A DNA stretch of 59,201 nt, from positions 1 to 59,201 of the forward strand of contig JAAYXB010000021.1 in assembly GCA_012516125.1 (NCBI GenBank). The letters run 5' to 3'. The notes below the pieces were generated by a model. That model worked only from the letters and a program-made list of their open reading frames with translations, searched no databases and was not told the origin of the DNA. Positions 4,329 to 50,949 of this stretch are shown here, piece by piece; the stretch's first letter is position 1; each line of letters opens with the position of its first letter. This DNA is from Bacillota bacterium (lineage in GTDB: Bacteria > Bacillota > SHA-98 > UBA4971). A program made the position numbers and the translations under genes.

Positions 4329-5549
4329 CTACCGCTCCTCCCGGGCATCTGACGGGCCAGGCCCCTCCGTCGGCTCTGTCGGCTCCCCGGCCTGGGCCAG
4401 TTCCTCGGGCTGGGCTGGCTCCGCAGGCGACACAGGTTGCTGCGCCGGCTGCGCCTGTCGTGGTGCAGTCTCCGTCGGCTGGGCGGCCTGCGTCGGTTGC
4501 GCGGCTTGCGTCGACTGTGGCCCTCCCTGCACCACCGGCTGCGGCACTGGACGCACCGGCTGCTGTGGCTGATGTGACGGGAACCAGGGCCTGTTGGTCC
4601 CGAATCTCGTGTCCAGGACGGCGCCAAGCCCGATGACTGCCACCGCGATGGCGACGACCGCCCCGAGACCCGACACCAGGCCCAGCGCAGCGAGGACAAG
4701 CGCGCCGACGAGGACTTTGACCAGGATGGTCATGTTCGCGTTCGCCAGCCGCCCCACTCTATCGCCCACGACCACCGAGATGGCCGCGTGGCCGAATGCC
4801 GCGGCCGCCACATAGAACACTATCCACACCGGCACCAGCGGTATGCCTATGAGCGTGATCGCAAGGAGTATCATGCCAGGGACGAACAGCAGCCACGCCA
4901 CGAGGCCGACGACCACGGCTCGCCCCGGCTTCGTCTCGACGGAAGCACCCACGGCGGCCACATGGTTCGGCCAGATGGCCACGATGACAAGAGCCAGCAC
5001 CAGCGCGCCCACAAGCCTCAGGATCCACATGAAACCGAAGTACGCCCAGGACATGTGCCACGGTCCCCAGCGCATCGGCCAAGTCACGCCCCGGAAGTCG
5101 AACCTGAACGGGATCCTGCCGCTATGGATCGAACCACGGACGATGGCGCCAGGAGATCTCTGTACCGATCCGCCGATGCTCGTCACATCCCCGCCAACTC
5201 TCGCGTTATCGCCGAGGAAAACCGTTGATCCAACCGATACCACGTCGCCGTCCACCTCGCCGTTGACCTCGACCACGGACCCGATGGAGACGGCATTTCC
5301 TCTCACCCGCCCGTCCACGGTGACCTTGTTACCCAGGGAGACCACGTCGCCTTCAACAACCTCGTCTGCCTGCACGTGAACCGGGCCGCCGAATATGACT
5401 AGACTCCCGCTCCGCCTTTCCTCGGCGGACGCGGACCCGGTGAAGCCCACCAGCGCGATCGCGACAGCCAGGGCCAGCACGACCACGACCGCGCCGAACC
5501 TGTTCGTACTTCTCAGCTTTGACGTGCTCAACCCGACTTCGATGCCCAT
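4329..5549 (-). CDS. bactofilin-like membrane protein
   Basis: The product has 406 residues. The ATG at 5549 follows GAGAGGTG; further in-frame starts (GTG/TTG) lie just upstream. A signal-like segment (about 20-42) is followed by a repeated beta pattern (VEGDVVSLGNKVTVDGRV, NGEVDGDVVSVGSTVFLG) typical of the right-handed beta helix of bactofilin/polymer-forming proteins. Several hydrophobic helices come next, then a Pro/Gln/Ala/Glu-rich tail with repeated QAAQPT. Bactofilins form scaffolds at the membrane; this version with several membrane helices resembles uncharacterised Bacillota proteins. The exact role is unknown. Confidence 0.8.
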   Translation of the reverse strand: MGIEVGLSTSKLRSTNRFGAVVVVLALAVAIALVGFTGSASAEERRSGSLVIFGGPVHVQADEVVEGDVVSLGNKVTVDGRVRGNAVSIGSVVEVNGEVDGDVVSVGSTVFLGDNARVGGDVTSIGGSVQRSPGAIVRGSIHSGRIPFRFDFRGVTWPMRWGPWHMSWAYFGFMWILRLVGALVLALVIVAIWPNHVAAVGASVETKPGRAVVVGLVAWLLFVPGMILLAITLIGIPLVPVWIVFYVAAAAFGHAAISVVVGDRVGRLANANMTILVKVLVGALVLAALGLVSGLGAVVAIAVAVIGLGAVLDTRFGTNRPWFPSHQPQQPVRPVPQPVVQGGPQSTQAAQPTQAAQPTETAPRQAQPAQQPVSPAEPAQPEELAQAGEPTEPTEGPGPSDAREER

Positions 5550-12948: not shown

Positions 12949-13997
12949 GCGGGCGAACCCGTTGTGTGGCGATCAGAGATTCCTCGACGTATCTCCTCGG
13001 CCCACTTGACGATCTGCTCAATGCGCGCCCTCAGTTCTTCCTCGTTCAAGGACTCATTATTGACGTAGCTCCATATGTCTGAGTTAAGGCTCCGTACCTC
13101 AGCCATGAACGCAGGGTCGATCTCCACGTCGAGCCACTCACATTGCCTGACCAGACGGAGGAGGTCGGCCTCATCATACTCCTTGTACAACCGGAGTGCT
13201 GTAAGGTATCGGGGATGCACTTGGATAGCTCGCAACACCTTGTGCCATTCGACCTCAAGTTGAGCTATCGGCGTAGAAGTGCACTTCTCAACGAGGGATA
13301 TCAGGTTGTCACTAAACCTCCCTTCGCCACATATCTCAGCCAGACCTCTATGGAGACGTATGACGCTGCGGTGGCCAAACCGTTCGTAGAGGAACCCTAA
13401 GAACGAAGAGTTGCCCCGCGACGCCACAAGGTACCGAAACCGAGAGATCTGGCTCGACTCAAGCAACAAAGTCCGTAGAGGTGGGAGCTCACCTAGCGCC
13501 AAGAGACCCGAGGCTTCATAATGCAGCGGACGACCGAGATACAGATTCTGAACCAACCATGCAAAGCCCTCGTCCATGGAATCAACTGCGCAGAGGTGCC
13601 ATATGGCATGGTTGACCAGATGAACAACCTCGTGGGGGTTGAAGGGCCTACAGAGACTTGGATCTTCGATGCTCGTCGGCACGGGCCATGGGTCTCGCAC
13701 TATGTTCGGGTAGCCGGCTGACCCAATGCCCCAATACCGACTCTCTATGAACTGATACTCTATCCGGCGAGGGAAAGCGTAGCCGAAGAAATCCTCCACG
13801 TAGCGAATGGACTCGGTCACTCGTTGAAGTAAGAGTTCCTGGACCTCCCAAGGAACGTCAATGCCATCGGGAAAACGAATCACTACGGTATCATTGGCGG
13901 TCTCCTTCGAAGATGCACCAGCTGGCGGTGAACCCGCCAAGAACCACGTGACTATAGCAAGCAAGACAACCGTTTTCACAGCCGAGTGGGTCCGCAA
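12945..13997 (-). CDS. secreted peptidase MA-like metalloprotease, paralogue C
   Basis: The product has 350 residues. TTG 13997 follows CGGAGGTGA; a longer frame begins at 14033. The signal peptide (to about 28) ends PPAGASS. The site is H122-E123-V-V-H126, with E143 in MDEGFAWL as likely third zinc ligand. The mature protein opens DTVVIRFPDGIDVPWEVQ, close to paralogue B (DWVIVHFPGDVNVPVDIQ). It is the first gene of the B-C operon. The DNA here is less GC-rich than the flanking housekeeping genes, as in acquired islands. Confidence 0.75.
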   Translation of the reverse strand: MRTHSAVKTVVLLAIVTWFLAGSPPAGASSKETANDTVVIRFPDGIDVPWEVQELLLQRVTESIRYVEDFFGYAFPRRIEYQFIESRYWGIGSAGYPNIVRDPWPVPTSIEDPSLCRPFNPHEVVHLVNHAIWHLCAVDSMDEGFAWLVQNLYLGRPLHYEASGLLALGELPPLRTLLLESSQISRFRYLVASRGNSSFLGFLYERFGHRSVIRLHRGLAEICGEGRFSDNLISLVEKCTSTPIAQLEVEWHKVLRAIQVHPRYLTALRLYKEYDEADLLRLVRQCEWLDVEIDPAFMAEVRSLNSDIWSYVNNESLNEEELRARIEQIVKWAEEIRRGISDRHTTGSPA

Positions 13998-14033
13998 GCT
14001 GCTGTCACCTCCGAACTGACTCCTCACGATCAA

Positions 14034-14215
14034 TCAAGCGCAGTCCCCCTGAGTCGGTCGGGCCCATTCTTGACGAGGGCGTGGCGGCAGATGTCGCTGA
14101 GGCCGGAGGTCTCCGCGACGAGGGAGATGCCATACTCCTCCACGTAGTGGTTCTTCGCCACGTCCCCGGTGATTACTTCAGGCCGTAATCTGCTTCTCCT
14201 GGCGTGTCGACATGG
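14034..14215 (-). pseudogene. possible gene remnant of unknown family
   Basis: An open frame without a start signal reads PEVITGDVAKNHYVEEYGIS, then VAETSGLSDICRHALVKNG, before TGA at 14034. The composition is protein-like and unlike random GC-rich frames, but upstream the reading is broken by stops. I do not recognise the family. Confidence 0.3.
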
Positions 14216-14736
14216 TCAGCCCACCGGCTTCCGGGCGTGCTCCGAAGAGCCTCTTATCAAGCTTCTGCTCCCCAATGTGGAAGGCCCGTTCTCCAGAGCG
14301 AGCCTCGTCGTTCTCTCGCCCACGTCTTACTCATATTCGCCCAGGCGTGTCTCCCGTCGCTCAGGCTAGAACCCATCGACTCCTCAGCATGCATCCCCTG
14401 CCGGGTGAACACCTGAGTCGACCGCGCCGCGGCCCTCACCAATAGTGAGCGTCCCTATCGCAGAGACGTCCGCCAAAGGCGCTGTGCCTTATAGCGTGTC
14501 GGAAGCCGCCGAAGAAGGCGGATCTTCTGGAACCCGTCTCCGAATGGACGTTCGTCGCAGCTACGGTCCAGTGCTTGGACCCAAGGACAGGGACAAACCC
14601 TTTGTGCGGAATCTTGGCAAGGATGTTTGTGGAAGCAGGGCCAGGAAGAGCCGTGTTGCGGGCGAAGGATAGCGAAGCCTTACCCGGCCATGTGTCGTCA
14701 CCACTATGAAACGCACAGTAGCCCTTGCCAGACCCA
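14216..14736. other. intergenic stretch without recognised genes
   Basis: Both strands are broken by stops, and the open frames present lack start signals and domain motifs. It separates the protease island from the EamA gene and may contain decayed coding DNA. Confidence 0.35.
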
Positions 14737-15699
14737 TCACGGGTGGCGGCCTACATCCCGCCCGTCCCCCGGGCGCTTCCGTGGAAACTCCACTTCGGAG
14801 GCAAGCATGCCTGCGAGGATGAGCGCGGCGCCGACCTGCTGGGCGGCTGTCAGCCGCTCGCCGAGGAGCAGCCACCCGAAGAGCCCTGCGAATACAGGCT
14901 CCGTCGCAAACACGATGGCCACGTGGGTGGGGCTGGTGAACCTCTGGGCGACGTTCTGGACGAAGAACGCCAGCGTCGTCCCGAAGACCGCGAGAAACGC
15001 GACCCCGCCGAGATCTCGCACCGAAACGGGCATCGCCACGTGTTGGCCGAGCCCCAGCACTCGAACGCCGAGGACCACGAAAGCCGCGACGGAGACAGTG
15101 GCAAGCTGGACCGTCACGAGCAATGGCACATCGAACATGGGAGCGAACTTGCCCACCGCCACGATGTGAAGGCCGAATGCCACCGCTCCCACAAGAACGA
15201 GGAGATCGCCTATCTCGAAGAGTGGCCCTCCTCCCAGCTTAAGCGTGAGAAGGGCAAGGCCCACGGTGGCGCACGTTACCCCTACGATGGCCGCCGGCTC
15301 CGGCGGCCTCCTGAGGATGATCGTTGACAGGATCGGGACGAGCACCACCGATAGCCCTGTGATGAACCCCGCCTTGGACGCGCTCGTGTACTGGAGCCCC
15401 ATGGTCTGGAAAGCGTACCCAATGAATAGCGCGAGCCCGACCAGGACGCCTGCTCCCGCGAGCCTTGGCGTTATACGCCTGAGCCGGGGCGCGACCGCCA
15501 CCGCCATGAGCGCAGCGGCCATGAGGAAGCGCACCGCGACGAGGGCAACGGCGTCCACCCTCGCGACAATGTCCTTGACCACGACGAAGGTGGCGCCCCA
15601 GATGAGCGTCGTCACAATGAGCGATCCATCGGCAACCCATTGCCGATGGATCGGGCTTGCCCAAAATCCCTTGAAGTGCAGATATCTCATCTCCTTCAT
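14737..15699 (-). CDS. EamA/DMT-family transporter
   Basis: This 320-residue protein has ten hydrophobic segments in two EamA repeats. The first opens SLIVTTLIWGATFVVVKD and the second follows near FEIGDLLVLVGAVAFGLHIV. GEVLTAAQQ-type (LGERLTAAQQVGAALILAG) is the usual EamA C-terminal motif. Such proteins export amino acids or other small metabolites; the substrate cannot be told. ATG 15699 is chosen, but TTG 15708 overlaps the gatB stop and would also work. It is probably the last gene of the gatCAB unit. Confidence 0.88.
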   Translation of the reverse strand: MKEMRYLHFKGFWASPIHRQWVADGSLIVTTLIWGATFVVVKDIVARVDAVALVAVRFLMAAALMAVAVAPRLRRITPRLAGAGVLVGLALFIGYAFQTMGLQYTSASKAGFITGLSVVLVPILSTIILRRPPEPAAIVGVTCATVGLALLTLKLGGGPLFEIGDLLVLVGAVAFGLHIVAVGKFAPMFDVPLLVTVQLATVSVAAFVVLGVRVLGLGQHVAMPVSVRDLGGVAFLAVFGTTLAFFVQNVAQRFTSPTHVAIVFATEPVFAGLFGWLLLGERLTAAQQVGAALILAGMLASEVEFPRKRPGDGRDVGRHP

Positions 15700-15704
15700 C
15701 CCGC

Positions 15705-17252
15705 TCAACCCGACGAAAGCCGCTCTCGAAGCAGCCTGTTCACGGCCTGCGGGTTCGCGCGTCCCCGCGTCTTCTTCATCACCTGGCCGACGAGGAAGGT
15801 GATGGCCCTGTCTTTCCCCGCGCGCACTTCGTCGGCGACATCGCGGTTTTCGGCTATGACCTCGTCAACGATCCTCGCAAGCTCGCCCTCGTCAGCTATC
15901 TGCACGAGGCCCTTCTCGGCGACCACCTGGCGAGGTTCCTTTCCTGTGGCGAACATTTCCTCGAAGACCGTCTTGGCTATCTTGCCGCTAATCGTTCCGT
16001 CATCTATCATCTTCAACATGGCCGCGAGCGCGGTCGGCGCCACGCGCACGTCGCGTATGTCAGTGCCGGTCGCGTTCATGAGCCTCGCAAGCTCGCCCAT
16101 GACCCAGTTGCTCACGGCTTTCGCATCGCCGCCGTACGCCGCGACCGCCGCCTCGAAGTAGTCCGCGAGGTCCTTCGACTCGGTCAGGATGGCCGCGTCG
16201 TAAGCGGGGAGCCCATACTCCCGAATGAACCTTTCGTGGCGCACACCCGGAAGCTCAGGGAGCGTGCTTCGCACCTCGGCCACCCATGCCTCATCGATCT
16301 CAAGCGGAACGAGGTCGGGCTCTGGGAAGTACCTGTAGTCGTCGGCCTCCTCCTTGCGCCTCATGAGCACAGTCACCTGGCGGGATTCGTCCCAGTGACG
16401 GGTCTCGCGCGTAACACGCTCGCCCCTCGCCAGGATCTCCGCCTGGCGCCTGAACTCATACGCGAGAGCCTTTTCCACGGCTCTGAAGGAGTTGAGGTTC
16501 TTGAGCTCGATGGGCGTCCCGAGCGCGGACGACCCTTTCGGCTTCACCGAGATGTTCGCATCGCACCTGAGCGAGCCTTCCTCCATCTTGCAGTCGGACA
16601 CGTCCAGGTAGCGAAGGATGCTCCGTAGCATTGAAAGATACGCGTACGCTTCCTCAGGCGACCTTAAGTCTGGCTCGCTCACGATCTCAAGGAGCGGCAC
16701 CCCGGTGCGGTTGTAGTCCTCCAGCGAGAAGCTGGACCCCGTGATGGTCCCGCTCTCGTGCACGGACTTTCCGGCGTCTTCCTCAAGGTGTACCCGCTTT
16801 ATGCGCACCCGACGCATGCCGCCGTCTACGGAGACGTCGACGTAACCGTTGGTGCCGAGAGGCAGGTCATACTGGGATATCTGGTAGTTCTTCGGTAGAT
16901 CGGGATAGAAGTAATTCTTCCTGTCAAACTTGGAGAAGCTTGCCACCTCGCAGTTCAGCGCGAGCGCTGTCTTTATTCCGAATTCCACAGCCTTGCGGTT
17001 GAGGACCGGCAACACCCCCGGAAGCCCCAGGCACACAGGGCAGGTGTGGCTGTTCGGAGGCGCATTGAACGCCGCCTGGCATCCGCAGAACAGCTTCGAT
17101 TTCGTCGAAAGCTCTACATGGACCTCAAGGCCGATCACAGGCTCGAATTCCGAGGCGCAAGCGACGGCACCGGCCCCTCCGTCTTGCGCGGGCCCGGGCC
17201 CCCCGGCCGCTTCCGCCGCCCAGGCCGTGCTCACCTTTGCCCTCTCAGGCAT
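15705..17252 (-). CDS. gatB: Asp/Glu-tRNA amidotransferase subunit B
   Basis: GatB binds misacylated Glu-tRNA(Gln) or Asp-tRNA(Asn), phosphorylates the side chain and receives ammonia from GatA. The 515-residue product has the core [13 protein letters not shown] from about residue 33, zinc-type cysteines (CGC and CPVCLGLPG), and the HLEEDAGKS and YRYFPEPDL motifs, with a C-terminal YqeY-like tail. ATG 17252 follows GGAGGTGA and overlaps the gatA stop by eight bases. A longer open frame upstream lies inside gatA and is not the gene. The order is gatC-gatA-gatB. Confidence 0.96.
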
Positions 17253-40499: not shown

Positions 40500-41384
40500 T
40501 CACCGCCCGAGATCCTCTTCGCTCTTGCCAGCGTCGGCGAAGAAGAGGGGCTCGCCGTACTCCTTCACGCCGAACGAGGCTATGACCTTCTGGGTGCTCT
40601 CAGCCACCATGAAGTCCACGAAAGCGAGGCCCCCCGGCCCGTTCACCTTGTCGAATCTCCGGGGATTCACCTGCATGACATGGTATATGTTGAGGAGCGC
40701 GCCGTCGCCTTGCACAAGGATCTCAAGGCTCAGGCGCTTCTTCAGCGCAAGGCATGTGGCGCGGTCGGTGAGCGTGTAGCCCTGCTTCTCAGAAGCGATA
40801 TTGAGCGTCTGCCCCATGCCGGCCCCGGCCTCCTGGTACCAGCGCCCCTCGGGCTTCACGCCGGCCTTCGCCCAGATCTCCTTCTCTTTCTTATGAGTGC
40901 CGGAGTCGTCGCCGCGCGACACGAACACCGCCTCCGCGGCGGCGATCTTCTTGAAGGCCTCCGCCGCCGACTTGAGGCCGCGTATGCCAGCGGGGTCGCC
41001 TGCCGGCCCCACGATCACGAAATCGTTGTGCATCACGAGCTTGCGGTTTGTCACAGCCCCACTCTGCACGAGTTCCATCTCGGCCGCAGGCGCGTGGCAC
41101 AGGAGCACGTCAGCCTCGCCCCGCGCCCCGAGCGCGAGGGCCTGCCCGGTGCCGACGGCGATGGTCTTTACTATGTACCCGGTCTGGCTCTCGAACATCG
41201 GGATGAGCACGTCGAGGAGGCCGCTGTCCTGGGTGCTCGTGGTGGTGGCCAGGATGACCTCACGGCTCGCGGGCGCAGCAATAGCGGTGGCGCCAGGGAC
41301 CGTAGCGAGGATACCTGTAAGCAGCATGAGCACGAGGAGCTGACGTCTTGTGTGAGAGGACAGAAGGCTCTTGAAATCCGGCAT
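40500..41384 (-). CDS. tupA: tungstate-binding protein
   Basis: The 294-residue product has an export signal (to about 38, ATAIAAPAS). TTTSTQDSGLLDVLIPMF is the TupA hallmark whose Thr/Ser residues bind the oxyanion, and FVSRGDDSGTHKKEKEIW is the second binding motif. ATG 41384 is preceded by AAAGGAGAT, which lies at the 3' end of the riboswitch. TupA binds tungstate far more tightly than molybdate in known cases. It is the first gene of the operon. Confidence 0.94.
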   Translation of the reverse strand: MPDFKSLLSSHTRRQLLVLMLLTGILATVPGATAIAAPASREVILATTTSTQDSGLLDVLIPMFESQTGYIVKTIAVGTGQALALGARGEADVLLCHAPAAEMELVQSGAVTNRKLVMHNDFVIVGPAGDPAGIRGLKSAAEAFKKIAAAEAVFVSRGDDSGTHKKEKEIWAKAGVKPEGRWYQEAGAGMGQTLNIASEKQGYTLTDRATCLALKKRLSLEILVQGDGALLNIYHVMQVNPRRFDKVNGPGGLAFVDFMVAESTQKVIASFGVKEYGEPLFFADAGKSEEDLGR

Positions 41385-41395
41385 GATCTTTACAT

Positions 41396-41518
41396 CTCCT
41401 TTCCAATGATGGGAGGCTTGCCGGTTTCCCGGCAGACCCTCGAGCCGCAAGGGCGGACCCTTCGCGGCTGCCGGTCACGCGCCATCCATGGAAGGTGCAG
41501 GCGCAGTGACTCGGAGTG
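41396..41518 (-). ncRNA. Moco/Tuco riboswitch of the tup-moa-moe operon
   Basis: On the minus strand the leader begins ACTCCGAG and ends GCCTCCCATCATTGGAAAGG, then AG. This 3' block matches the conserved end of the Moco riboswitch (E. coli moaA: GCCTCCCGTATCTGGAAAGG). CTCC pairs with GGAG to close the structure. Inner hairpins are GCGCC/GGCGC, GCCGC/GCGGC and TGCCGG-GAAA-CCGGCA with a GNRA loop. The closing helix contains the ribosome-binding site of tupA, so ligand-bound RNA would block translation. Mo or W cofactor is the likely ligand; which one cannot be told. Confidence 0.85.
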
Positions 41519-41538
41519 TAAGTTCCCAGCTTGACTCA

Positions 41539-46743: not shown

Positions 46744-47712
46744 TCACTTGTTAAAGCCTTCCTGCATTGTCTTCACAAGCTCGCCGATACGTTCCCGATC
46801 AGGAACCCAGTACAACGGGGAGAACTCCCCGGGCAGCGTCTCGGACACAAGCTCAGCCCTGGTCCTGACAAGAAACCAGCCGATGGATGCCATGTCGCGC
46901 CGGGACATGTCGGTTCTCACGTGCTCCGTCAGGATCGCCAGGATCTCGCGCGCCTTGCGAAGGTTCCGCAGGCTTGTGGCCTGACGGGCGACAGCCTTCA
47001 GCAGGATCTGCTGGCGCCTCACCCGGCTGATGTCCCCGAGGGCGTCCGCGCGGTATCTCACGTACCCGAGCGCCTTCGCTCCGTCCAGGACCTGCCTGCC
47101 CTTTTTCAGGTCAACCTTGAAGCCGCCTGCCCTGTCCACATAGTGCATGTCCTTGTCCACATCGATCTCTACCCCTCCAAGGGCGTCGATGATGCGCACA
47201 AATCCCTGGAAATCAACCTCCACGTACCGGTCGATCGCCATGCCCAGGAGCTCCTCCACGGTTCTGCGCGTGAGGTCCTGGCCTCCATAAGTATGCGAGG
47301 CGTTTATCTTGTTCGTGCCATGCCCCGGAATCCGCGCCTTCGTGTCCCTCGGGATCGACACCAGGTACACCCTGTTCACCCTGGGGTTCACCGATGCGAG
47401 CATTATGACGTCGGCCCGCACCGGGCCTTGCATGGGCTTGCCGTGGTCATCGTAGGTCCTATCCGTTCCGAGGATAAGGACGTTCACCGGCCGGTCCTGC
47501 ACGCCGAAAGTCGCCTCGGGAGCAAGCCACGACGACACGAGCACGTATAGCGTGACGACGAGCGCAGCGATGGCCACAAGGACAACGAAGAGCACGCGCC
47601 AGAACGTAATGTAGCGCGGCCTCTCTACTAGCTCAAACGGGCTTGGGCCTAGAGGCCCGGCGGACCCTCCCCCGAACCCAGGGCCGATATCGCCGCCCCC
47701 CATGCGTTCCAC
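46744..47712 (-). CDS. LytR-CpsA-Psr family wall-polymer ligase
   Basis: This 322-residue LCP protein has a Gly-rich cytoplasmic tail, one membrane segment (about 38-60) and the LCP domain: NVLILGTDR, VYLVSIPRDTKARIPG, KINASHTYGG, GGVEIDVDKDMHYVD and LGYVRYRADALGDISRVRRQQ. LCP enzymes attach wall teichoic acid or other polymers to peptidoglycan. GTG 47712 is chosen; ATG 47703 is possible. A promoter with three DnaA boxes precedes it. Confidence 0.92.
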   Translation of the reverse strand: MERMGGGDIGPGFGGGSAGPLGPSPFELVERPRYITFWRVLFVVLVAIAALVVTLYVLVSSWLAPEATFGVQDRPVNVLILGTDRTYDDHGKPMQGPVRADVIMLASVNPRVNRVYLVSIPRDTKARIPGHGTNKINASHTYGGQDLTRRTVEELLGMAIDRYVEVDFQGFVRIIDALGGVEIDVDKDMHYVDRAGGFKVDLKKGRQVLDGAKALGYVRYRADALGDISRVRRQQILLKAVARQATSLRNLRKAREILAILTEHVRTDMSRRDMASIGWFLVRTRAELVSETLPGEFSPLYWVPDRERIGELVKTMQEGFNK

Positions 47713-47828: not shown

Positions 47829-47858
47829 ATTATTGGGTGGTCTATCCTGCTTTGCCAA
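47829..47858 (-). promoter_or_regulatory. promoter of the LCP gene
   Basis: On the minus strand TTGGCA (47858-47853) and AATAAT (47834-47829) are 18 bases apart, giving a start near 47822 and a leader of about 110 bases. The DnaA boxes begin 10 bases upstream of the -35. Confidence 0.55.
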
Positions 47859-47868
47859 CCCTTCCCTT

Positions 47869-47898
47869 TTATCCACATTATCCACAAGTTTATCCACA
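47869..47898 (+). promoter_or_regulatory. cluster of three consensus DnaA boxes
   Basis: TTATCCACA occurs three times on the plus strand at 47869-47877, 47878-47886 and 47890-47898, all perfect. The tight spacing and shared direction are like a DnaA oligomer site. It is in an intergenic region, not beside dnaA or dnaN, and just upstream of the LCP promoter. Confidence 0.9.
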
Positions 47899-47975: not shown

Positions 47976-49013
47976 TCATGACTCAAGCTCGAGGTCGGGA
48001 ACGGCGGGAAGCTCCAGGGAGCTTCTCTCTCCCCTGGCGAGCCGGAAGTAACCCGCGCACGCCACCATTGCAGCGTTGTCGGTGCATAAGGCAGGCGACG
48101 GGGACACAAACCGCAGCCCGGCTTCGGATGCCCGAGCTGACATCCTCTCTCTGAGCCTGGAGTTGGCGGCCACGCCGCCCGCAAGGGCCACGGTCCTGAC
48201 ACCCCCGGCGAGCGCGGCCCGTATCGTCTTCTCCACAAGGACGTCCACCACGGCCTCCTGGAAACTGGCGGCGAGGTCGGCCAGGCTCGTGTTGAGCTTT
48301 CTCACGTGGCTGACGACGGCGGTCTTGAGCCCGCTGAAGCTGAAGTCGTACGACCCTTCCTCCAGGAACGCCCTGGGAAAGCGAACCGCGTTAGGGTCAC
48401 CGCTCCGTGCCGCGGCGTCGATCGCAGGCCCCCCGGGGTACCCCAGCCCAAGGACCCTCGCTACCTTATCGAACGCCTCGCCCGCCGCGTCGTCGCGCGT
48501 GCGGCCCATTACTTCGTAGCTGCCGTGGTCCTGAAGGTACACGAGGTCTGTATGTCCTCCGGACACCACGAGGCACACAAAGGGAGGGTGAAGGTCTGGG
48601 TGCTCGATGAAATTCGCGTATATGTGCGCCTCGATGTGGTTCACCCCGATGAACGGCACCTGCCGCGCCAGCGCCACGGCCTTGGCCGCGGAGAGCCCCA
48701 CCAGGATGGCGCCCACAAGGCCCGGCCCACGCGTCGCCGCCACCGCCGTCACATCCGAAAGGCCAAGGCCGGCGTCGCGCAGCGCCTGGTCGATGACGGG
48801 GATGATCGTCTCCACGTGCCGCCGCGAGGCGACTTCCGGCACGACACCGCCAAACCGCCTGTGAAGGCTTGCCTGGGACGCAACCACGCTCGAGCGCAGG
48901 CGCAAGCCCGAGGCCTCGCACGACCCGTCGCCCTCCAGCACGGCGCAGGACGTTTCGTCACAGCTTGTCTCGAGCCCAAGGACGCAAAATGCGCCTGCGT
49001 TAGCGTCGCCCAT
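47976..49013 (-). CDS. tsaD: tRNA threonylcarbamoyladenosine transferase TsaD
   Basis: TsaD transfers threonylcarbamoyl to A37 of ANN-reading tRNAs. The 345-residue protein has LGLETSCDETSCAV, the metal ligands in HIEAHIYANF, VSGGHTDLVYL, DDAAGEAFDKVARVLGLGYP and LAGGVAANSRLR. It overlaps rimI by 14 bases. TsaE, TsaB and TsaD work as one complex, and their genes are adjacent here. Confidence 0.96.
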   Translation of the reverse strand: MGDANAGAFCVLGLETSCDETSCAVLEGDGSCEASGLRLRSSVVASQASLHRRFGGVVPEVASRRHVETIIPVIDQALRDAGLGLSDVTAVAATRGPGLVGAILVGLSAAKAVALARQVPFIGVNHIEAHIYANFIEHPDLHPPFVCLVVSGGHTDLVYLQDHGSYEVMGRTRDDAAGEAFDKVARVLGLGYPGGPAIDAAARSGDPNAVRFPRAFLEEGSYDFSFSGLKTAVVSHVRKLNTSLADLAASFQEAVVDVLVEKTIRAALAGGVRTVALAGGVAANSRLRERMSARASEAGLRFVSPSPALCTDNAAMVACAGYFRLARGERSSLELPAVPDLELES

Positions 49014-49497
49014 GGTGGTCCCTCACAGGTCGGTCGCGCGGAGGTTGTTCGTTCTTCCACATTATCATGGCATCCTCGCCGTTGTCGTGGTAGTAACCCG
49101 GTCGTATGCCGACGCTCACGAATCCCAGCTTTTCGTAGAGCTTCTGCGCCCCCAGGTTTGACACCCTCACCTCGAGCGTGATCCTCTTCGCGCCCTTCGA
49201 CCTCGCGTAATCCATGATAGCCCTCATGAGTCTCTCGCCTACGCCACGGCGCCGAAAGTCAGGATGCACCGCAAGGTTGGTGATGTGGCCTTCGTCGAGG
49301 ATGACCCAGATCCCGACGTAGCCTATCACCTTGCCGTTCTGCCGGGCCACAAGGTAACACGCCCTGCTGTTCTCGTAGATCTCTGAAAGGAATGCGTTCC
49401 GCGACCACGGGGTCGGGAAGGAGGCTTTCTCGATGTTCATGACGCTATCAAGATCGCTTTGCCGCATGGGGCTGATCTCAAAGTCCACCTTGCGCAC
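49000..49497 (-). CDS. rimI: ribosomal protein alanine N-acetyltransferase RimI-like
   Basis: This GNAT-family enzyme of 165 residues has the acetyl-CoA motif RRRGVGERLMRAIM and a typical RimI end (LEVRVSNLGAQKLYEKLGFVSVGIRPGYY, then EDAMIM). RimI acetylates the N-terminus of ribosomal protein S18 in E. coli; other targets are possible. GTG 49497 is inside the end of tsaB, and another GTG nine bases later is an alternative. It lies between tsaB and tsaD, as often in Bacillota. Confidence 0.9.
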   Translation of the reverse strand: MRKVDFEISPMRQSDLDSVMNIEKASFPTPWSRNAFLSEIYENSRACYLVARQNGKVIGYVGIWVILDEGHITNLAVHPDFRRRGVGERLMRAIMDYARSKGAKRITLEVRVSNLGAQKLYEKLGFVSVGIRPGYYHDNGEDAMIMWKNEQPPRDRPVRDHHGRR

Positions 49498-50254
49498 GCC
49501 CCCCGCATGACATGGCCCCGCCCTGCACCATCTCGGCGCTAGACCTTCCCAGATAGAACGGCTCGACTTCATACGCGTTCCTGGCCTGGCCAGACCTGAT
49601 CGCAAGCCTTCCCATGGCCGCAACCACGGCAGGACGGGGCCCGATACACCACTCCGGGCCTATTGCAAGCCTATCCCCAGCATTCTCAAGTATAACCTGC
49701 TTGTGGGCCCTCGCACCATCCCCCACAAAGAGGACTTTTGCCCCATTCCCGCCCGGCCCGGCGGCGTCACCAACGGCGGTGCCGTCAGCAACGGCAGCGC
49801 GCAGGCGCTCGACAACCTCGCGGATTCCCTTCACCTCGTAGTCGCTTACCCTCTCGGGATACAGGCCGCGAACACGATAGGTCGCCGTGTAGACGAGGTC
49901 GCGCCTGGCCGAGATGAGCGGGCAGACGAGCGCCTCCGAAAAAGGAAGGTTGGCCGCGATGGCGTCGAGGGTCACGACCGCGCCGACAGGGATGTCCAGC
50001 GCGTAGGCCAGCACCTTTGCCATGGTTACCCCAATCCGCACGCCGGTGAACGACCCCGGGCCTATCGCCACTGCGACGCCGTCGAGGTCCGAGACAGCCC
50101 ATCCGGCCTCGGCAAGGAGCCTCTCACAGGTAGCTGCGACGCTTTCCGAGTTCGCCCTCGTTACAATGGCGCTGTATTCGGCGACCACTTCGTCGCCGGA
50201 TACGAGCGCCACGCCTCCCGTAAACGTGGAAGTGTCAATACCCAGGACCCGCAA
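49478..50254 (-). CDS. tsaB: TsaB, t6A synthesis scaffold
   Basis: TsaB is the inactive ASKHA-fold partner of TsaD. The 258-residue protein starts MRVLGIDTSTFTGGVALVSG, has VAIGPGSFTGVRIGVTMAK and LISARRDLVYTATYR, and a conserved end (VEPFYLGRSSAE). The start is TTG 50254, inside the end of tsaE (20-base overlap). A Gly/Ala-rich insert near 170-185 lengthens it slightly. Confidence 0.95.
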   Translation of the reverse strand: MRVLGIDTSTFTGGVALVSGDEVVAEYSAIVTRANSESVAATCERLLAEAGWAVSDLDGVAVAIGPGSFTGVRIGVTMAKVLAYALDIPVGAVVTLDAIAANLPFSEALVCPLISARRDLVYTATYRVRGLYPERVSDYEVKGIREVVERLRAAVADGTAVGDAAGPGGNGAKVLFVGDGARAHKQVILENAGDRLAIGPEWCIGPRPAVVAAMGRLAIRSGQARNAYEVEPFYLGRSSAEMVQGGAMSCGGRAQGGL

Positions 50255-50837
50255 GCGCCTTCAACTCCTCGACCATGCGGCGGAACCTATCCCCGCGCGG
50301 GAAAAGCACGATCTCCCTGGCGCCGCTGACGTCGCCGTCGCTGTGGCCGTCACCGTCCCCGTCACCGTCGCCTTCGTCGTCATCGAGGCTTTCGCCGTCA
50401 CGCTTGCCTTTGCCGCTCGTGCCACGCCCGCCTCCGCCATCATCGATGCCATCATCGATAGGCATCCTTATCTCCACGTCGAGCCTTTCCTCGGGCAAAA
50501 GCTCACGGATCCTCTCAGGCCACTCGATAGCCACGGCGCCAGCCCCGTAAAGGCACTCCTCGACCCCTGCGCTCTCGGCGTCTGGAACCCCTTCCAGCCT
50601 GTAAGCGTCGATGTGGTACAGGGGGATTTTCCCAGGGTGTTCGTGAATGATGGTGAACGTGGGGCTTACAACCCGCCCTCGAACGCCCATGCCGGCGGCC
50701 ACGCCCTGCACGAACACAGTCTTGCCCGCACCAAGCTGGCCTTCGATGCAAACCACGTCTCCCGGGTCCAGAAGCTTCCCCAGAGCTTCGCCGAGCCTTC
50801 TCGTGTCACGCGGGCTAAAAGCCCGGTACACCAGCAA
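50235..50837 (-). CDS. tsaE: TsaE, t6A synthesis ATPase, with acidic insert
   Basis: TsaE powers the cycle of the TsaBD complex. Walker A is GQLGAGKT, then VVSPTFTIIHEH and YHIDAYRL, with the late Trp in AIEWPERI. TTG 50837 follows GGGAGGTT and gives 200 residues, over the usual 150. The extra length is a run of about 45 Asp/Gly/Lys residues (DDGGGGRGTSGKGKRDGESL and then GDGDGDG) near the end, encoded by a simple repeat. The family end (REIVLFPRGDRFRRMVEEL) resumes after it. Confidence 0.93.
   Translation of the reverse strand: MLVYRAFSPRDTRRLGEALGKLLDPGDVVCIEGQLGAGKTVFVQGVAAGMGVRGRVVSPTFTIIHEHPGKIPLYHIDAYRLEGVPDAESAGVEECLYGAGAVAIEWPERIRELLPEERLDVEIRMPIDDGIDDGGGGRGTSGKGKRDGESLDDDEGDGDGDGDGHSDGDVSGAREIVLFPRGDRFRRMVEELKALAGPGY
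50325..50470. repeat. simple repeat encoding the TsaE acidic insert
   Basis: Trinucleotide/hexamer units of the GTCACC and GTCGTC type encode Asp, Gly and Ser on the minus strand. Such repeats change length readily. Confidence 0.6.
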
Positions 50838-50949
50838 CAGTTGAACCTCCCGCCCGCAGGACAAATTCAAGCAGATTATACCACACGCACGAGCGAAGAA
50901 TCCATAACGACCGTGCGGACCATGCGGAGAGAGGCGGCTATAGACGTCG

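Follow-up and report, generated by a model that had tools for sequence, protein, structure and literature searches.

What are three perfect DnaA boxes doing between a tRNA-modification gene and a cell-wall gene? The question is raised by a 59.2-kb stretch of DNA (the window), in which a first-pass annotation had singled out the boxes, placed them just upstream of the promoter of a wall-polymer ligase gene, and proposed that DnaA either couples wall-polymer attachment to replication or is titrated at the site.

Three DnaA boxes behind tsaD

The three perfect TTATCCACA boxes lie on the + strand, all in one direction, at 47869–47877, 47878–47886 and 47890–47898, with starts 9 and 12 bases apart. 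Boxes 1 and 2 abut, forming a tandem pair without spacer, and box 3 follows after 3 bases, at a distance of 77 nt from the tsaD stop. Each box reads TGTGGATAA on the strand that carries the flanking genes, so that the array becomes TGTGGATAA-ACT-TGTGGATAA-TGTGGATAA, with box starts at 77, 89 and 98 nt counted from the tsaD stop. No further perfect box occurs elsewhere in the window. The genome is a draft of 98 contigs and 3.24 Mb, with the window boxes on contig C2; it contains 20 perfect boxes, three of them in the window cluster and four beside dnaA on contig C86, and apart from the window cluster the assembly has no close pair or triple of TTATNCACA on one strand. An RNA element was considered at the boxes and rejected, as folding of the strand is no better than that of shuffled sequences (z 0.34) and a comparison with Rfam gave no match at this place. 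Elsewhere in the window, a Moco (molybdenum/tungsten) riboswitch is found at 41379–41528 on the − strand (RF01055, 59.3 bits).

On one side of the array lies a gene for an LCP family glycopolymer transferase (46744–47712, − strand; PF03816, 157.5 bits; TIGR00350, 144.9 bits). A promoter-like TTGGCA-18-AATAAT site is located between the boxes and this gene, running from 47858 to 47829 on the − strand, and 10 bases separate it from the nearest box. On the other side are four overlapping genes of one direction, all on the − strand, that look like a single operon for the t6A modification: tsaE (50235–50870; TIGR00150, 105.1 bits), tsaB (49478–50254; TIGR03725, 158.9 bits), rimI (49000–49623; TIGR01575, 160.1 bits), which overlaps tsaD, and, as the last gene, the tRNA t6A transferase gene tsaD (47976–49013; TIGR03723, 422.9 bits). 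We take tsaD to be the gene also named gcp, in agreement with the Gcp/TsaD naming in paper titles. The local description given by the first-pass annotation was thus accurate: the arrangement of the three boxes, the promoter-like site 10 bases away and the wall-polymer ligase gene behind it were all recovered. Its statement that no replication gene is near holds as far as tested, since the only Bac_DnaA match of the genome is on contig C86, and the boxes, whose conservation in relatives it had proposed to check, are present in 5/5 relatives examined within the genus.

Position of the boxes across the phylum

Pairs of perfect boxes no more than 30 bp apart were found in 22 of 41 genomes (our own and 40 relatives), many of those in relatives lying just behind tsaD, even without an LCP gene. 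A TsaD match is present in 396 of the 398 genomes of the phylum. From the best approximately 155 of these matches we chose, by family, 80 tsaD loci representing 68 families, with second picks favouring complete genomes; boxes did not enter the selection, though those of a few genomes were previously known. Counted in 250-bp bins around the tsaD stop, TTATNCACA boxes number 133 in the first bin after the gene, 16 in the next and 0–7 in the others, while a reversed-pattern control gives a single match in the first bin. The corresponding first-bin count is 48 boxes in 30 loci of relatives. Within 500 bp of the tsaD stop, 47/80 loci have at least one box, 42/80 at least two and 27/80 at least three, leaving 33/80 with none; control windows with at least two boxes amount to 6/1329. 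The boxes share one direction in 131 of 147 cases, and a spacer-free tandem pair occurs at 24/80 loci.

The enrichment persists when intergenic DNA only is considered: 38 of 57 segments after tsaD bear boxes, against 6 of 263 elsewhere (odds ratio 86), with densities of 8.44 and 0.39 boxes per kb, respectively. All six exceptions are located 408–1954 bp behind tsaD, in loci without a box within 500 bp. The distance from tsaD to the gene that follows has a median of 264.5 bp in loci with at least two boxes, compared with 79 bp in the other loci. Taken globally, the conserved anchor of the boxes is the 3′ end of tsaD, not the LCP gene.

A search independent of tsaD points to the same place. The tandem 18-mer TTATCCACATTATCCACA is present in 138/398 genomes of the phylum, and its reversed control in 0. 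Among the 73 genomes with both the tandem and TsaD among the matches listed, the 18-mer lies within 600 bp behind tsaD in 44 and up to 2.5 kb behind it in another 3; no genome has it in the 2.5 kb upstream (0/73), and in the remaining 26 it is found only elsewhere. Among 80 named TsaD loci, 12 carry at least two boxes within 500 bp, including Sporomusa malonica, Thermovorax subterraneus, Kroppenstedtia, two Brevibacillus, Paucisalibacillus, Halolactibacillus, Amphibacillus and a Bacillus sp.; the many loci titled Lachnospiraceae in this set have no boxes. In a thin comparison outside Bacillota, loci assigned to other phyla by their titles show boxes within 500 bp in 0/19 cases, two of these having less than 250 bp of downstream sequence. 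In a TsaD tree, built from 78 of 110 loci (one for each combination of family and state) together with 19 others and having many weak branches, the trait extends throughout the phylum and is yet clustered, with 19 state changes against 31.7 in shuffles and 0/500 shuffles as low as 19. The simplest reading is an old trait, lost repeatedly, on a weakly supported tree that is blind to gain versus loss.

The gene that follows the boxes varies. According to our neighbour calls, which are longest-ORF guesses, it may encode an LCP protein, a radical SAM-PDZ protein, Lgt, 5-FTHF cyclo-ligase, a Mur ligase, an AMP-ligase or Lit, and the convergent genes encode an ABC-F protein (ydiF-like) or a GNAT protein; at least eight families other than LCP stand behind boxes. 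At L278 (G028:C1 near 2139544), roughly 20 kb behind tsaD, a cluster adjoins a 5-FTHF cyclo-ligase gene, which suggests that an insertion split tsaD from boxes and a cyclo-ligase gene that are adjacent to it elsewhere.

The arrays themselves have a recurrent architecture. Same-direction boxes are most often spaced by 9 bases (33 times), followed by 12 (10 times) and by 21 and 52 (5 times each). A comparison of the surroundings of the tandem pair, including 24 loci (one per family, with the pair present and enough upstream sequence), shows a degenerate, TGTTGATAA-like third box at +21 of the pair, common to many families. At a near-fixed distance of 26–29 nt before the tandem pair there is also a LexA-like GAACnnnnGTTT motif (L059, L075, L081, L083, L092, L097, L110, L124, L150, L160 and others). 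Over the 80 loci, the first 250 bp after tsaD contain the pattern [AG]AACnnnnGTT[CT] 13 times and other bins 0–3 times. A link to the SOS response is possible.

Clusters were also observed beside other genes. Two families have a tandem box cluster upstream of hpf, the gene of the S30AE ribosome hibernation factor (L274 in G348, 4459–4476; L281 in G162, 4356–4398; perhaps also L275 in G214), and the f85 genomes examined have no boxes at tsaD. At L286 (G151), a box pair adjoins a Sua5/TsaC gene, a second instance of a DnaA cluster next to a t6A gene; it resembles the ywlC cluster of B. subtilis, where ywlC is presumably TsaC.

Candidate readings of the array

Lone boxes are dispersed over the genome, as one would expect if the cluster had arisen by chance or from drifted motif copies. 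However, 20 boxes in 3.24 Mb predict only about 2e-8 same-strand triples within 30 bp, 0/200 Markov-simulated windows contained even one box pair, and the arrangement recurs across the phylum with nearly empty controls, which leaves the accidental reading with a next to negligible probability. A second or cryptic replication origin at the tsaD side would account for the likeness of the clusters to oriC arrays, and the cumulative GC-skew of the window does reach its minimum around 51–52 kb, approximately 4 kb from the boxes. But this minimum falls on a change of gene direction and not on the boxes, where the first-pass annotation had wished to see an origin excluded by GC-skew, and dnaA (15380–16732) and dnaN (13829–15025) sit on contig C86 with box-rich flanks, the usual bipartite arrangement. 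In addition, tsaD is 0.08–0.48 of the genome away from dnaA in 56 relatives with near-complete assemblies. We therefore consider such an origin very improbable, and the window boxes were rejected as the oriC, with dnaA on another contig; the oriC of this genome likely lies on contig C86. The DnaA encoded there is a full-length equivalog match (564.6 bits) that aligns to domain IV of E. coli DnaA (1j1v) and retains the GRDHTTV segment; its DNA-binding domain is of the standard kind.

The proposal that DnaA acts as a transcription factor, activating or repressing the LCP promoter from the three boxes and so tying wall-polymer ligation to replication, has local features in its favour. The promoter-like site adjoins the boxes, and in an alignment of the genus both the boxes and parts of the promoter are retained in 6/6 members while the remaining spacer has diverged; three relatives in the class (L145, L146 and L148) have a similar geometry by eye, again with the LCP gene next. 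In B. subtilis, DnaA is reported to regulate sda, ywlC, vpr and others (PMC4447404). On the other hand, the cluster remains at tsaD beside unrelated or convergent genes, and in the sister genus the LCP gene follows tsaD within 12–45 nt with no boxes at all (6/6 loci with a TsaD match). As the gene behind the boxes varies, control of wall polymers cannot explain their conservation; LCP as their conserved partner was rejected as a general rule, and we regard this coupling as unlikely. What survives of it is a possible local effect, in which the LCP promoter of this genus may make use of the array and be additionally controlled by bound DnaA.

Two further readings start from transcription of the t6A operon. 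The boxes could form a roadblock that ends this transcription or insulates the next gene, in line with their position after the last gene of the operon, their single orientation and the finding, by a simple scan of the 55/80 loci with a gap of at least 100 bp, of a terminator-like hairpin in just 4 of 39 box-bearing gaps. Hairpins are few in box-poor gaps too (3 of 16 with fewer than two boxes), so that this crude scan reveals no visible difference; boxes as a replacement for terminators were rejected, and the roadblock seems decidedly improbable. Alternatively, the cluster could be an ancient equivalent of datA in Bacillota, sensing translation capacity, with read-through from the t6A operon stripping DnaA, or being blocked by it, and DnaA being released when the operon is busy; the E. 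coli datA would then be convergent and the LCP promoter a later user. We offer this as a speculation with rather little probability, prompted by the parallel with datA (a tRNA operon and read-through) and by the few terminator-like hairpins in the gap.

The reading we prefer, at a probability of about 0.62, is that the window boxes are an extra-oriC DnaA-box cluster of the B. subtilis type that buffers free DnaA from a position of long standing behind the t6A operon. Mechanistically, DnaA would bind the same-direction boxes cooperatively, and the boxes would hold part of the cellular DnaA away from oriC. Passage of the fork would duplicate the site and thereby reduce free DnaA once initiation has taken place. 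Binding of DnaA here in the cell, and an effect on the timing of initiation, are proposed by analogy with B. subtilis. Of the two ideas put forward by the first-pass annotation, titration fits best because the tsaD-side cluster is a strong DnaA region in B. subtilis and removal of six such clusters leads to early initiation. The proximity to oriC that titration predicts was not confirmed, since box-bearing tsaD genes are not significantly nearer to dnaA. In 56 of the 57 genomes in which dnaA was sought (all except G041, which has three contigs), the mean tsaD–dnaA distance is 0.193 of the genome for 25 loci with at least two boxes and 0.233 for 26 box-free loci (P = 0.15; five single-box loci excluded, about half of the genome lengths rounded to 0.1 Mb), and collapsing by family gives P = 0.45. 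One box-bearing tsaD is even at 0.475 of the genome from dnaA. The trend had been suggestive in 27 genomes and, given the larger set, is not used as support. Since 33/80 loci and the sister genus are boxless, the site is dispensable or movable.

If correct, the buffering reading bears on how Bacillota that have no datA, DARS or Hda restrain DnaA. The B. subtilis clusters have so far been regarded as minor. That 36 of 68 sampled families retain a cluster at one gene (at least two boxes within 500 bp after tsaD), next to very different neighbours, implies that the place is under selection. The tsaD side also provides one corresponding site that can be compared across many species, and it cautions against taking DnaA boxes as regulators of whichever gene adjoins them. 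Our literature search, whose reach did not extend to Okumura 2012 and Ishikawa 2007, found no account of the conservation of the tsaD-side cluster.

Comparison with known DnaA-binding regions

The bipartite oriC of Bacillota shares with the window cluster the identical box sequence and the direct-repeat arrays, but it flanks dnaA, which is here on C86. The promoter of the sporulation checkpoint gene sda, regulated by DnaA in B. subtilis, is similar in having boxes near a promoter; the gene in the window is instead an LCP gene, whose regulation by DnaA is only putative. We claim no shared ancestry with datA of E. coli, which requires an IHF site and drives hydrolysis of DnaA-bound ATP, while B. 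subtilis is without IHF; datA follows a tRNA operon, and read-through transcription governs it (PMC10950094).

The closest counterpart is the gcp–ydiF region of B. subtilis. PMC4447404 describes it as “downstream of gcp; downstream of ydiF”, counts it, with 10 sites, among the eight regions that bind DnaA most strongly in vitro and in vivo, and gives a Kd of 0.15 uM for ATP-DnaA and, at 55 nM, a 16-fold higher recovery with ATP-DnaA than with ADP-DnaA. Strains lacking six extra-oriC clusters initiate early (PMC5295017, PMC13220808), a phenotype that is strong only when all six are deleted, and a 2017 review assigns the clusters no significant role in initiation control compared with E. coli. 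Like this region, the window cluster comprises several intergenic boxes of the TTATNCACA type, outside oriC and behind the 3′ end of tsaD. They differ in the number of sites, 10 predicted in B. subtilis and three perfect boxes in the window, and in the neighbour, a convergent ydiF in the former and a co-directional LCP gene with a promoter-like site in the latter.
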